Source: Nitrospirota bacterium (GTDB lineage Bacteria > Nitrospirota_A > Leptospirillia > Leptospirillales > Leptospirillaceae). From it: a stretch of DNA of 5,399 nucleotides. Shown here piece after piece: positions 1,001-4,533 of the stretch. The notes under the pieces were generated by a model. That model made no database searches. It was not told the origin of the DNA and saw nothing but the letters and a program-made list of their open reading frames with translations. Within the stretch, counting starts at the first letter, position 1. The number at the start of each line of letters is the position of its first letter. Location: NCBI GenBank assembly GCA_021829515.1, contig JAKBPM010000053.1:1-5399 (forward strand), written 5' to 3'. A program made the position numbers and the translations under genes.

Positions 1001-1567
1001 TTATTTCAGCGAAAAAAAACCGATCGAGGAGATTCTGTTATTGGTGGTCATAAAATTGATATTGTTCGAAGAATGAGTGATCGCCAGATTCAGACCGGTA
1101 TAATGCTGAATGAGAGCATTGTTCATTGTGTTCTGTATTTCAGTCAGTAGGGCATGGGGCGGATTGCTCAAATTAAGACTGGAAGAGTTTCCAGGGCCGA
1201 CTTGGATCAGGGAAACGGTCCCGCTCTTTGTCGACTGGACCGTTGCATTGCCGGAATTTATTTTGACGATCTGGGACTGTAATGATGAGTAGAACGCCTG
1301 TGTGCCGACGAGATTTCCATTGATGTAGGTAGCACTGGTAATTCCGATTGAATAATTCATGCCCTGTAGAAAAAATCCTCCCCTCATCCTCTCGAGGGTC
1401 TGGTTATTCACTGGCAGGATTTGCTGGAAAACAGGAGCGATTGGGTTTGCGTAAACCACTTCGCCAGAAAAAAAAGAAGAGAAGATCACGGCTACAAAAA
1501 GGACTGAACGAGACAGAAATCCCTTTTTCATTTTTTTATTCCAATCCTGGCGTCTGTCTCTATTCAC
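1001..1567 (-). CDS. Secreted RGGF protein, possibly FapE-like
   Basis: From GTG 1567 the product has 188 residues. Residues 1-21 are a long basic n-region, then a hydrophobic core (SVLFVAVIFSSFF), with likely signal peptidase cleavage after VVYA at residue 40. The mature part carries TLERMRGGF (57-65), YSIGITSATYING (72-84) and a C-terminal IQNT..N..IQ....LN motif (144-160). It has no cysteine. The RGGF plus 'Gi...inG' pattern and the place directly after the fapD-like gene agree with FapE, but this is from memory of the family and not an alignment. GTG 1567 is chosen because GGAGGAAGG lies just before it; ATG 1531 (176 residues, MKKGFLSRS start) makes a more usual signal peptide but has only a weak ribosome site. 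The role proposed is an extracellular or periplasmic amyloid accessory or minor fibre component. The RGG matches a double-glycine processing site. Confidence 0.8.
   Translation of the reverse strand: MNRDRRQDWNKKMKKGFLSRSVLFVAVIFSSFFSGEVVYANPIAPVFQQILPVNNQTLERMRGGFFLQGMNYSIGITSATYINGNLVGTQAFYSSLQSQIVKINSGNATVQSTKSGTVSLIQVGPGNSSSLNLSNPPHALLTEIQNTMNNALIQHYTGLNLAITHSSNNINFMTTNNRISSIGFFSLK
1376..1411 (-). other. Double-glycine leader-like motif in the RGGF protein
   Basis: Residues 53-64 (VNNQTLERMRGG) place hydrophobic residues at -12 (V), -7 (L) and -4 (M) before Gly-Gly at -2/-1. That is the spacing of leaders cut by C39 peptidases in bacteriocin systems. A C39 peptidase is encoded by the adjacent gene. 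Cleavage here is an inference. Confidence 0.45.
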
Positions 1568-1625: not shown

Positions 1626-2438
1626 TTATGGAATTCCAATCTTTGCAAATCCTCCCAACTCGAACTGATTGGGCCCCCCTTCGGTCAAAATCATGGTCCA
1701 GACATCCGGGACAATCCTGGCAAGATGGGTCGGACCCTTGACCCCCGCTGCAGTCCATTCGGATGGGCTATTAAAGGTTTTTCGCCCAAACATAAGGTTT
1801 TTTCCGGAGTGGACCATAAAGAAAAGATCACCCTGCCACTGCCGGACAAATCGCTTGCGCGATTCGATCCGGAGACCGAAAGCCGAGTCCCCTATCAATA
1901 CCTGGCGGTTCGTGACCCCTTTGATGACGACAAAGTGTTTGTACCCATGGACCTGAATCAGGGCGATTGCCGGAAGGTGAACCTGCTGGAGTCGATCCAG
2001 CGAGATCCGGTATCCGTCGGCCAGGTATCCGATCGATCCCAGGAATGACTTGATATCAAGAAGAGAGAAGCCTTCCTTCCGGATCTTATTTTTATCTCCA
2101 TGAAGGTACATATACTTGAAGGCTTCCTGCTCAGTTGTCGGCCGATCAAAACTATAGGTCATCAATGTTGCAACGGCGGCTGATCCACAGCTGAAATCAA
2201 ATTGCTGGGGTTGTACATTTGCAAAACGGAGTTCCCGGACGCTTTTGTTATGTACCGTGATGAATCCCGGTGGCCCAAAGGGAAGGATAACCCCTGCCTC
2301 TGCTGGAGGAATGCCGAAAAGCATCCAGAAACTGTAAATGACAGGGATGAAAAAGAGGATCCTGTTCAGGTGATTCCCTTTCTCGTGATTCTCTGCCGTC
2401 AGCTTCCGTTTTTCTTTCCGAATAAATGGCTCCACCAA
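1626..2438 (-). CDS. fapD: FapD-like C39 family cysteine peptidase
   Basis: The 270-residue product has a charged n-region, a hydrophobic segment at about 27-43 and a probable signal cleavage after PAEA at 48, so it should act in the periplasm. The C39 papain-like core spans about 75-210. It shows QQFDFSCGSAAVATL with nucleophile Cys84 and the oxyanion Gln at 78 or 79, EGFSLLDIK (122-130), HGYKHFVVIKGV with His168, and LIGDSAFG with Asp184. Most relatives have Asp-Pro where this has Asp-Ser. There is no ABC-transporter domain, unlike bacteriocin exporters, which fits FapD, the stand-alone C39-like protein of Pseudomonas fap operons. About 60 residues follow the peptidase core. The frame begins at TTG 2438, with TAGGA six bases upstream and overlapping the preceding stop; GTG 2435 is possible. 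The gap to the upstream gene is 7 nt, so translation is probably coupled. The natural substrate of FapD is not settled to my knowledge. Confidence 0.85.
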   Translation of the reverse strand: MVEPFIRKEKRKLTAENHEKGNHLNRILFFIPVIYSFWMLFGIPPAEAGVILPFGPPGFITVHNKSVRELRFANVQPQQFDFSCGSAAVATLMTYSFDRPTTEQEAFKYMYLHGDKNKIRKEGFSLLDIKSFLGSIGYLADGYRISLDRLQQVHLPAIALIQVHGYKHFVVIKGVTNRQVLIGDSAFGLRIESRKRFVRQWQGDLFFMVHSGKNLMFGRKTFNSPSEWTAAGVKGPTHLARIVPDVWTMILTEGGPNQFELGGFAKIGIP

Positions 2439-2445
2439 TCATTTC

Positions 2446-2847
2446 CTAATGCATGGAAACATTTAATTGCACCAGATTCTGGATAACGACGTTGCTCCCC
2501 GTATTTTGAATCACATTGACGACGCCCGAGGCAGAGCCCAACGCATGTCCGGAAATATTGTTATTCATCTGGCTTGACGTTACCGTGGAGGATAATGTTC
2601 CGTTTAACGTTGCCGAAATCTGACCATCATTGGTAAATGAAAATCCCCCCATTCCCCTGGTGTTGGAAAGGACTTGATGCGATACGGGATATTCCAGAAA
2701 ATCGGAGTTTCCCCGATAGGGAGAGGAAGGAGCGTCCTCGAACAGATCGCCGGCCCATGCAGTATCGGAAAAAACAACGAGAGCTGTCAGGGTGATCAAA
2801 AAAGTGGCTTTTCCCTTCAGGCTTTCAGACCATTTTTTCGTGTTCAT
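2446..2847 (-). CDS. Secreted single-repeat amyloid-like protein
   Basis: The 133-residue product has a signal peptide (KGKATFLITLTALVVF core) with likely cleavage after AWA at 32. The mature chain is about 101 residues and lacks cysteine. It contains LSNTRGMGGFSF (60-71), recalling the RGGF of the downstream protein, and a Ser/Thr/Asn-rich middle. At the C-terminus, residues 108-130 align without gaps to the repeats of the 530-residue protein: the G.vNV.QN.G.N.V.Q pattern shares ten of 23 positions with its fifth repeat. Both proteins end in V.(V/M)H. ATG 2847 has GAGGG eight bases upstream. It is separated from the amyloid gene by 93 nt containing a hairpin, and from fapD by 7 nt. A minor subunit or nucleator (FapA/FapB-like role) is the favoured inference. 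The exact fap equivalent cannot be assigned. Confidence 0.75.
   Translation of the reverse strand: MNTKKWSESLKGKATFLITLTALVVFSDTAWAGDLFEDAPSSPYRGNSDFLEYPVSHQVLSNTRGMGGFSFTNDGQISATLNGTLSSTVTSSQMNNNISGHALGSASGVVNVIQNTGSNVVIQNLVQLNVSMH
2458..2526 (-). repeat. Single amyloid-type repeat in the 133-residue protein
   Basis: Residues 108-130 contain VNVIQNTGSNVVIQ in register with VNVQQNNGANNALQQ and its relatives in the neighbouring 530-residue protein. Conserved positions are G108, N111, V112, Q114, N115, G117, N119, V121, Q123 and V130. The homology is read by eye. Confidence 0.7.
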
Positions 2848-2940: not shown

Positions 2941-4533
2941 TTAGTGGACAGCGACCGAAATGGACTGCTGAATGGAGCCGTTGCTGCCGTTGTTCTGAGA
3001 AATATTCATGTTTCCTGTTGCTTTCTGAAATGCGTTGCCAGAAAGCGTGTTTGTCAGAGCAACGTTGGTGAGGGTTGCCGAATTGCCGGAAACCGTCCCG
3101 CTCAAGGTGCTGGAGGATGTGGCAGCGATAAGAGAAGAAACTGCGCTGTTGACCCCGACCTCGATTCCTTGCTGATCGACATTGTTCGAGCCATTATCCT
3201 GCTGAACATTGATATTGCCCTTGGCACCATCGAATGAACTATTCTGAATCGAGTTCGAAAGTGGCGAAGAACTCACAGAGTTTGTATCGGAGGTGACGGT
3301 AGCCGTTTGTGCCATACTCATGGGTGCGAATACCCCACTATAGCTGCCACCGACTACATCGACTGCAGTTGCCTGTTGCAGGACATTGTTTGCACCGTTG
3401 TTCTGCTGGACATTGATTTGGCCTGTGGCACCCGCAAAAGAGCTGTTCTGGAGTGTGTTGGTCATCATGCTGGGGATGACAATACTAGTGCTTTTTGTCG
3501 TGCTCCCGATGTTTGAGACATTCGGATCAACAATCGGGGGGGCTGTCGTTGCTGGAGTTCCGGGAGGAGACGTTGAAATCCCCACTGCCGTGCTCTGTTG
3601 CAGGGCATTGTTTGCGCCGTTGTTTTGCTGGACATTGACATCGCCTGCGACACCCTGGAATGAAAAGCCCTTGATCATGTTTGATGGGTCATCCAGTTTT
3701 CCGTCAATAGTCGAGGTGTTGTTCGTCAGGGTTGCACTGTTGGAGCTTGCGCCAATGGAAGAGAAGCCGCTCACCGGACCGCCAACATATCCCACGGCAG
3801 TTGCCTGCTGGATGGCATTGTTCGCGCCGTTATTCTGCTGGGCATTGATATTCCCGGCGGCTTTCTGAAACGAATTGTCCTGCATCATGTTGCTCAATGG
3901 GGAATCCGTAACAGTGTTTGTGTTGCTTGAGCCAGTCATCGTGTTGGATGCGGATGCAGAGGCGTTTAAGGAACTGGCAGAGGCCGACGAAAGTGAAACT
4001 CCCACTGACGTGTTTTGTCCCATGGCGTTGTTGGAGCCGTTGTTTTGGACATCGTTGACATTCCCGGATGCACCAGAAAAGCTTGAATTCATGATGGTGT
4101 TTGTAAGTGTTTGTCCGGAATCGGTTTTCATTGTGCCACCACTGTCATAGCCACCCAGGGTGTTTTTGTTGGTATTGACTGTTGCACCATTGGAACTTGA
4201 TGCATCGACAGTTCCGATCGCCGAAGAACCGGGACCCTGATCAACCCCAACGGAAATGGACTGCTGGATCTGGTTGTTTGATCCGTTGTTCTGTCCCGCA
4301 TTCACATTGCCAATAGCTCCCTGAGCGGTCTTTCCGGACTGGGTGTTTTTGAGAGTGCTCCGGGAAAAGGAGTCTCCATTGTCCGCATTGTTCGTATTCC
4401 CTGTCACTGTTGCCGTGTCACTTCCTGTTCCGGTTCCGGATTGTGCCCATGCCGGGCTGGCAACCATAAGAACGGCTGCTGCGCTCATTGCGGTCAATCC
4501 CGCCATCAACTTTCTTTTTTTGCTTCTTGTCAT
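2941..4533 (-). CDS. Seven-repeat secreted amyloid subunit, FapB/FapC-like
   Basis: The 530-residue product starts with a signal peptide (MTRSKKRKLMAG, then a hydrophobic core) cleaved probably after SPAWA at residue 30. The rest is low-complexity, rich in Asn, Ser, Thr, Gly and Gln. Seven repeats begin at residues 75, 157, 227, 297, 371, 439 and 507. The core is G-N-(I/V)-N-x-x-Q-N-N-G-(A/S)-N-N-x-x-x-Q, each usually preceded by a short 'SF.gA.G' segment and separated by variable Ser/Thr-rich linkers. The G-N-I-x-V-x4-G-x-N-N spacing matches the Fap repeat as I recall it (GNIGVNVAAGxNN), and it also resembles curlin's Q.G..N....Q. No cysteine is present, so the C-terminal CxxC described for Pseudomonas FapB/FapC is missing. 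The last repeat ends at the C-terminus (VAVH). ATG 4533 has GGAGG seven bases upstream and is first in the operon after a sigma-54 promoter. Export and polymerisation into extracellular biofilm fibres is inferred. Confidence 0.85.
   Translation of the reverse strand: MTRSKKRKLMAGLTAMSAAAVLMVASPAWAQSGTGTGSDTATVTGNTNNADNGDSFSRSTLKNTQSGKTAQGAIGNVNAGQNNGSNNQIQQSISVGVDQGPGSSAIGTVDASSSNGATVNTNKNTLGGYDSGGTMKTDSGQTLTNTIMNSSFSGASGNVNDVQNNGSNNAMGQNTSVGVSLSSASASSLNASASASNTMTGSSNTNTVTDSPLSNMMQDNSFQKAAGNINAQQNNGANNAIQQATAVGYVGGPVSGFSSIGASSNSATLTNNTSTIDGKLDDPSNMIKGFSFQGVAGDVNVQQNNGANNALQQSTAVGISTSPPGTPATTAPPIVDPNVSNIGSTTKSTSIVIPSMMTNTLQNSSFAGATGQINVQQNNGANNVLQQATAVDVVGGSYSGVFAPMSMAQTATVTSDTNSVSSSPLSNSIQNSSFDGAKGNINVQQDNGSNNVDQQGIEVGVNSAVSSLIAATSSSTLSGTVSGNSATLTNVALTNTLSGNAFQKATGNMNISQNNGSNGSIQQSISVAVH
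2947..4311 (-). repeat. Seven tandem protein-coding repeats with variable linkers
   Basis: The 69-base repeat cores lie at 4311-4243, 4065-3997, 3855-3787, 3645-3577, 3423-3355, 3219-3151 and 3015-2947. Period lengths are 82, 70, 70, 74, 68 and 68 residues. The central repeats (third to fifth) are closest to each other (QQNNGANN); the first, second and last use GSNN or GSNG. The DNA is much less uniform than the protein, so this is an old array and not a recent slippage product. Confidence 0.9.

Follow-up and report, generated by a model that had tools for sequence, protein, structure and literature searches.

Leader motifs on candidate substrates of a FapD-like C39 peptidase in a putative Fap-like operon of the Leptospirillaceae

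Which exported proteins are read by a FapD-like C39 peptidase, and by which of their residues? The question is raised by a 5,399-nt stretch of DNA from a Nitrospirota bacterium of the Leptospirillaceae (contig JAKBPM010000053.1; the whole stretch is called the window below), in which the gene for such a peptidase stands beside that of an exported protein with an RGGF sequence. For the Fap amyloid system itself the question has been under discussion for some years. Replacement of the FapD Cys by Ala abolishes secretion of FapC, and in mass spectrometry FapE had lost its N-terminus, over about 70 residues, whereas FapA-D had not (PMC5557850). The passages of the same paper that concern the cutting site note GG and GA motifs in FapE, describe canonical C39 sites as absent from the Fap proteins and consider an alternative recognition sequence for FapD possible (PMC5557850, 2017), and a section on FapD in a later article calls its target "yet to be determined" (PMC6173800, 2018). 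FapF has been suggested to be cut as well (PMC5557850), and FapD is thought to process FapE and FapF according to a 2025 review (PMC12822426); cutting of FapE by FapD is thus a published suggestion (PMC5557850, PMC12822426).

Four genes follow each other on the minus strand of the window in the order P0004, P0003, P0002 and P0001 (Table 1), and they probably form one operon because the gaps between them are short (93, 10, and 94 bases). P0004 contains seven GNxNxxQNNGxNN repeats of the type GNINVQQNNGANN, which resemble the published FapC repeat in kind (PMC5557850), and has 0 matches to the leader pattern described below. A single related repeat unit ends P0003 (VIQNTGSNVVIQN), and a similar unit is found in P0001 (TEIQNTMNNALIQ). 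Pfam searches with P0001, P0003, P0004, and P0005 gave nothing above cut-off, and neither FapA nor FapF was recognised inside the window. P0003 was considered as a FapB (NF058557) and rejected, with 20 bits against a cut-off of 190. P0005 has no match above cut-off in NCBIfam either, and its gene may lie outside the operon.

Table 1. Features of the window, with position, strand and basis of each assignment
P0004, 530 aa exported amyloid-like protein	2941..4533	-	translation; seven repeats, leader motif absent
P0003, 133 aa exported minor-subunit-like protein, C-terminal VIQNTGSNVVIQN	2446..2847	-	weak FapB match
Second leader, in P0003	2650..2685	-	alignment with relatives, slot motif
P0002, FapD-like C39 peptidase; 269 aa with GTG as start, or 270 aa with TTG at 2438	1626..2435	-	Pfam, NCBIfam, Foldseek
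Codon of Cys84 in P0002, which forms the triad with His168 and Asp184	2187..2189	-	invariant 27/27, 66/66
C-terminal tail of P0002, GGPNQFELGGFAKIGIP	1629..1679	-	peptidase alignment
P0001, exported protein of 176 aa in the FapE slot, with an IQN...N module at the C-terminus	1001..1531	-	directly after peptidase gene
C39-type leader of P0001, V41-G52; predicted cut G52/F53	1376..1411	-	translation, slot motif, logo, AlphaFold
P0005, 152 aa, downstream of P0001	478..936	-	ORF; no family above cut-off

The original prediction placed a stand-alone C39 peptidase next to the RGGF protein, and P0002 is indeed such an enzyme: it scores 63.4 bits against Pfam Peptidase_C39 (PF03412, cut-off 22), consists of 269-270 residues with a hydrophobic N-terminus (by inspection), and its gene is directly followed by that of P0001. 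Its triad C84, H168, and D184 (numbered on the 270-aa form) is invariant in all 27 FapD-like rows of a peptidase alignment, made up of P0002 and 26 proteins out of a list of 120, and also in all 66 sequences of a larger peptidase set, where the Gln is invariant together with Cys, His, and Asp. The nearest Foldseek matches of the structural model of P0002 (pLDDT 76, with residues 234-270 below 50) are the peptidase domains of PCAT1, ComA, and LahT. Against the NCBIfam model for FapD (NF058616) P0002 scores 137 bits, under the cut-off of 330, which nothing in the genomes of eight related loci exceeded either, and against the FilB model it scores 94 bits with a cut-off of 475. A relative of this peptidase was found in 3 of 21 genomes of Leptospirillaceae. 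The tail at the C-terminus of P0002, GGPNQFELGGFAKIGIP, varies little among the 16 closest rows of the alignment and is absent from the other 11; it includes an LGGF that resembles the RGGF of the neighbouring protein, and might serve as a self-docking or autoinhibitory peptide.

The translation of P0001 runs VYANPIAPVFQQILP-V41-NNQT-L46-ER-M49-R50-G51-G52-F53, that is, V at -12, T at -8, L at -7, M at -4, R at -3, and G at both -2 and -1 when counted from a bond after G52. V41-G52 occupies exactly the positions from 1411 down to 1376 at which V-12, L-7, M-4, and Gly-Gly had been predicted, and, as had also been proposed, it lies downstream of a probable Sec-type signal peptide, a hydrophobic N-terminus ending VYA/NP by inspection. 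A double-glycine leader is defined by hydrophobic residues at -12, -7, and -4 and by G-2 and G-1, and P0001 has V, L, M, G, and G at these places. LahT binds leader residues -4 to -11 in helical form and takes up -4, -7, and -12 in a hydrophobic groove; these three positions are required, 13 leader residues suffice, and changes at -8 are tolerated (PMC6363468). The AlphaFold model of P0001, whose confidence is low (pLDDT 63.5), has residues 43-49 (-10 to -4) in a helix and residue 53 onwards in strands, with RGG as a break between the two. The locus thus has in common with LahT, PCAT1, and ComA the hydrophobic -12, -7, and -4, the G-2 G-1 pair and a C39 fold with Cys-His-Asp. It differs from them in that the inner membrane is seemingly crossed via Sec first, the enzyme is stand-alone, -3 is Arg, and -1 is not always G, A, or S in the relatives, while C39 enzymes are reported to cut after GG, GA, or GS (PMC6363468).

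Conservation of L-7, M-4, G-2, and G-1 had been named as a check, and these residues are kept, together with V-12 and R-3, in all six P0001 homologues found. Among six P0001-type sequences, a set without the 99% identical P0006, invariant columns make up 18% of residues 29-39, 62% of the 13-residue leader and 65% of the rest, so that conservation is low between signal and leader and begins at the leader. The only invariant columns of a 31-row alignment are M1, L46, R50, G51, G52, and N134, to be read with the fact that its 25 rows from other loci (18-31% identical to P0001) had been picked for L...RGG.

Whether the leader accompanies the peptidase can be judged from loci that were fetched from genome contigs by the peptidase alone, as the best 80 of 550 stretches encoding relatives; a scan of genome contigs with P0002 alone as query found nothing. 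These loci come from Dyella, Rhodanobacter, Cupriavidus, Paraburkholderia, Burkholderia, Massilia, Acidithiobacillus, Thioalkalivibrio, Ectothiorhodospira, relatives of Geobacter, an Ignavibacteria MAG, a Nitrospirae MAG, and others. The peptidase ORF was located in 79 of the 80 and missed in L026, where the downstream protein has LSESRGA. Exported-looking ORFs (by a crude hydrophobicity rule) of at least 100 aa that start just downstream of the peptidase carry L...RGG within residues 21-150 in 63 of 75 cases, with a shuffle mean of 0.26, and 12 of the 75 are without it in that range. More than 2.5-3 kb away, the same motif occurs in 6 of 316 exported ORFs on the same strand and in 2 of 333 on the other. 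At positions outside the selection, the 46 nonredundant downstream proteins have V-12 in 38, V, L, I, or M at -12 in 44, D, E, or A at -6 in all 46, and F or Y at +1 in 43. With a looser scan of whole ORFs, which let wrong-frame ORFs pass, 77 of 79 loci have a downstream L...RGG.

The gene on the other side of the peptidase is also likely to encode a substrate candidate, P0003, with an RGM leader. Its residues are V55 (-12), L60 (-7), T63 (-4), R64 (-3), G65 (-2), and M66 (-1), so that only -12, -7, and -2 agree with a double-glycine leader, -4 being T and -1 M. The register comes from Leptospirillaceae-type relatives, which read AVSARTLDHARGG/F (L159) and AVSSGTLDNARGG/F (L001), against PVSHQVLSNTRGM/G in the window. 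The literal double glycine of P0003, G67-G68, was rejected as the cut site, since it has no leucine at -7 and it is R64-G65-M66 that aligns with the relatives. A small exported ORF lies just upstream of the peptidase in 72 of 79 loci (57 nonredundant). L....GG is found in 42 of these 57 (shuffle mean 4.6), and in 40 together with a hydrophobic -12 (shuffle mean 1.3); most of the remaining proteins have RGK, RGR, RAM, RAK, or similar. A pattern that allows G, K, R, or M at -1 and G or A at -2, written after the members without GG had been seen, matches 54 of 57 (shuffle mean 1.97, maximum 6). The proportion of invariant columns in five P0003-type sequences (P0012 left out) is 14% from signal to leader, 62% in the leader and 57% after it.

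The C-terminal signature of P0003 is present in 39 of the 57 nonredundant upstream proteins, and P0001-type and P0003-type proteins have a C-terminal module in common (38 columns, hhalign P 6.1e-7, probability 92; P0001 against P0003 in BLASTP, E 0.009). The two types may therefore be old paralogues, as far as these alignments tell. An argument that they were unrelated and hence had a common trans-acting reader was dropped when this module was found; with a shared module and possible paralogy, the common leader is not fully independent evidence, and our confidence was slightly lowered.

A similar leader is found on FapE. Searches with the FapD and FapE models gave 53 new loci, of which 36 were examined, namely the best 12 of one search and the 24 of two others; a pattern extracted 32 FapE or FapE-slot proteins (all but those of L097, L135, L137, and L139), 23 of them nonredundant. 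All 23 have L, V, or I at -12, L or M at -7, M, L, I, or Q at -4 and R or K at -1, and 18 have E at -8; R-3, G-2, and Y/F+1 were selection criteria for this set. The seven FapE that exceed the curated cut-off (L118-L124, taken for Pseudomonas-type) all carry the leader, for example LKDAEMAELRGR/YV, and those of L091, L094, L095, and L098 score 67-120 bits with the FapE model, below its cut-off. In two whole operons, L160 (FapE over cut-off) and L161 (FapE 212 bits, below cut-off), the strict pattern matches FapE and is absent from FapA, FapB, the FapC-like frames, and FapF. As a bystander it also matches FapD of both operons at its own catalytic His (LLEIRGYKH), and a looser pattern additionally matches the end of FapA in L160. 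That FapE is the only strict match among FapA-C, FapE, and FapF is in step with the mass spectrometry cited above (PMC5557850). Signal and leader together take up 40 residues in Pseudomonas-type FapE, against the roughly 70 that are missing, so that one has to suppose an additional cut or peptides that escaped detection.

P0001 itself gave no match at E<=1 to the NCBIfam FapE model (NF058559, cut-off 250). Its gene lies directly downstream of a fapD-type gene, as does that of FapE, and its leader shares -12, -7, -4, R-3, G-2, and the aromatic +1 with canonical FapE while having T-8 and G-1 instead of E-8 and K/R-1. In hhalign, P0001-type proteins match FapE when the leader is included (P 7.3e-6, probability 84, 44 columns), and the mature parts without the leader give nothing significant (P 0.07-0.47). 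P0001 is thus called FapE-type, a name that refers to its position and leader only. The window and the Fap operons alike have a C39 peptidase gene followed at once by one for a FapE-slot protein with a leader (L/V-12, L/M-7, M/L/I-4, R-3, G-2, aromatic +1) and a repeat-rich subunit upstream; they differ in that the window has a small protein with a leader encoded immediately before the peptidase. The double glycine, which the original prediction took as part of the signature, is kept within the P0001 family, and beyond it GG is not the most conserved part (RGM in P0003, RGK or RGR in FapE); on the sequences compared, the site is defined by R-3/G-2, L-7, and -12 and not by a double glycine. With K or R at -1, the FapE leader would be missed by a search for GG. 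A charge relation between peptidase and leader was considered too: position 141 of FapD is D in 40 of 45 window-type and R or K in 19 of 21 canonical enzymes, and its pairing with the charge at leader position -8 is suggestive. It was left out of the argument, as the two clades differ only once in this respect and position -8 can be changed in LahT.

A long downstream ORF (>300 aa, FapF-like by position and length only) contains L...RGG in 20 of 79 loci, which is in step with the published idea that FapF is cut; six loci (L003, L005, L021, L036, L048, and L057), in which the long ORF matched only without Arg at -3, were set aside. In a stricter count, 4 of 17 nonredundant exported ORFs of FapF length have the motif (shuffle mean 0.18). 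FapF of L163 reads VPDSELERLAGR, and the FapF of L160 and L161 have no L...RGG. As a general third substrate FapF was rejected on the stricter count and on these last two.

From these observations we infer that the window holds a Fap-like amyloid operon in which the leaders of P0003 and P0001 are cut by the exported P0002 after Sec export, whereby minor subunits are freed, and give this reading a probability of about 0.77. P0004 would be the major repeat subunit, P0003 a minor subunit, P0002 the exported peptidase and P0001 a FapE-type subunit. P0003 and P0001 would be exported by Sec and left with a short propeptide, of which P0002 would bind the last 13 residues: a short helix that presents the hydrophobic residues at -12 and -7, in P0001 also M-4, followed by R-3, G-2, and the variable -1 in extended form. 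Cutting after -1 (G52/F53 in P0001, most likely M66/G67 in P0003) would release the minor subunits to start or anchor fibre assembly, and the leaderless P0004 would need no cut. A two-step maturation with the RGGF protein as candidate substrate of the FapD-like enzyme had been proposed from this one locus, and the proposal gains in two ways. First, the leader accompanies the peptidase on both sides in loci chosen blind to their neighbours, and second, the three hydrophobic contacts important for LahT (-4, -7, -12) are present in P0001. Against it stand the K or R at -1 in FapE and the M in P0003, which are unusual for C39 cutting. Further points against it are T-8 in P0001 and T-4 in P0003, the possible paralogy of the two proteins, the pattern matches in FapD and at the end of FapA, the longer gap in FapE mass spectrometry, the P0002 score below the FapD cut-off, the missing match of P0001 to the FapE model, the mature parts without significant similarity and the 12 downstream ORFs that lack the motif.

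It is unlikely that P0002 cuts at another bond, after G-2 or further inside, with the RGG leader as the recognition part only. R-3 and G-2, although partly selection criteria, are kept while -1 varies among G, K, R, and M between families, and the gap in FapE mass spectrometry reaches to about residue 70 (PMC5557850), as such a cut would have it; the usual bond after -1 agrees better with the spacing of -12, -7, and -4 and with the aromatic +1, which is seen in 43 of 46 proteins where it was no criterion and in 23 of 23 where it was one. We hold it to be quite unlikely that the leader is bound and left uncut, as a docking or targeting signal for P0002 or an outer-membrane pore, in the manner of some type 1 C39-like domains. 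Inactive C39-like domains do bind substrates (PMC5135000, PMC6173800), and the K or R at -1 of FapE is odd for a C39 cut, but none of the 66 peptidase sequences departs from Cys, His, Asp, and Gln, the Cys to Ala exchange in FapD abolishes FapC secretion and the N-terminal peptides of FapE are missing (PMC5557850). Very improbable in our view is that the motif is the start of a fold common to P0001-type, P0003-type, and FapE proteins, with RGG as a turn before the first strand that no protease reads. The strands directly after the motif in the low-confidence AlphaFold model and the shared C-terminal module of the possible paralogues would suit such a fold; however, the spacing within the leader is constant although the sequence and length from leader to module differ between families, L...RGG also occurs in the long ORF at the FapF-like position in 20 of 79 loci, and a similar leader is carried by another protein in FilB loci. 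A chance Gly-Gly in a hydrophobic neighbourhood of a glycine-rich exported protein hardly deserves credit, since GG is common (L....GG in 30 of 316 distant exported ORFs) but L...RGG occurs in 63 of 75 downstream ORFs with 0.26 expected, and [VIL]....L..[VILM].GG arises after residue 25 in only 22 of 5000 shuffles of P0001.

Beyond the window, there may be a general double-glycine pathway after Sec export, a proposition for and against which we would bet equally. At least three branches of exported C39 peptidases, namely FapD, that of the window, and FilB, would read one leader, with hydrophobic -12, L-7, hydrophobic -4, and G-2, on periplasmic proteins, -1 being set by the branch (K/R; G or M; Q), and the Fap-like enzyme would cut both minor subunits and also, in certain lineages, a linker in the FapF-like pore. 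The nucleation of fibres and the gating of the pore would then both be timed by one protease. The comparison itself supplies a residue-level prediction of the site in FapE and a second family of candidate substrates for a type of peptidase that is needed for amyloid secretion in Pseudomonas. In the open-licence full-text literature, no paper was found that names this leader, K or R at -1 or the second substrate.

A search for FilB returned 12 loci, none over the FilB cut-off, and in at least three of the six FilB-type loci inspected a comparable leader, ending in Q at -1, follows closely on the signal peptide, with none in two of the six. They resemble the window in a C39 peptidase beside an exported protein with M/L-12, L-7, V/A-4, and G-2 (e.g., ALDDSALADVTGQAG), and differ in the Q at -1 and in the other partner genes. 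The leader idea would thereby extend to the Fil pilus system. The exported partner in the FilB-type loci L165, L166, and L169 has a start like [ML]..D..L..[VA]TGQ.G.

Further small exported proteins were seen in several loci. They follow the FapE slot in Leptospirillaceae (L001, 3997-4317; L159, 5769-6131) and, in two canonical Fap operons, lie close to the beginning (L163, 6249-6668; L164, 5910-6254), with an LWDE motif common to those of L001, L163, and L164. Leader-like sequences in L163 (DDQLGQVRGLF) and L164 (DKNLQKVTGRG) may mark further substrates. In Acidithiobacillus ferriphilus (L029, 2754-3173), the FapE slot is followed by a third small exported protein, whose leader is VSNTVLRQARGG.
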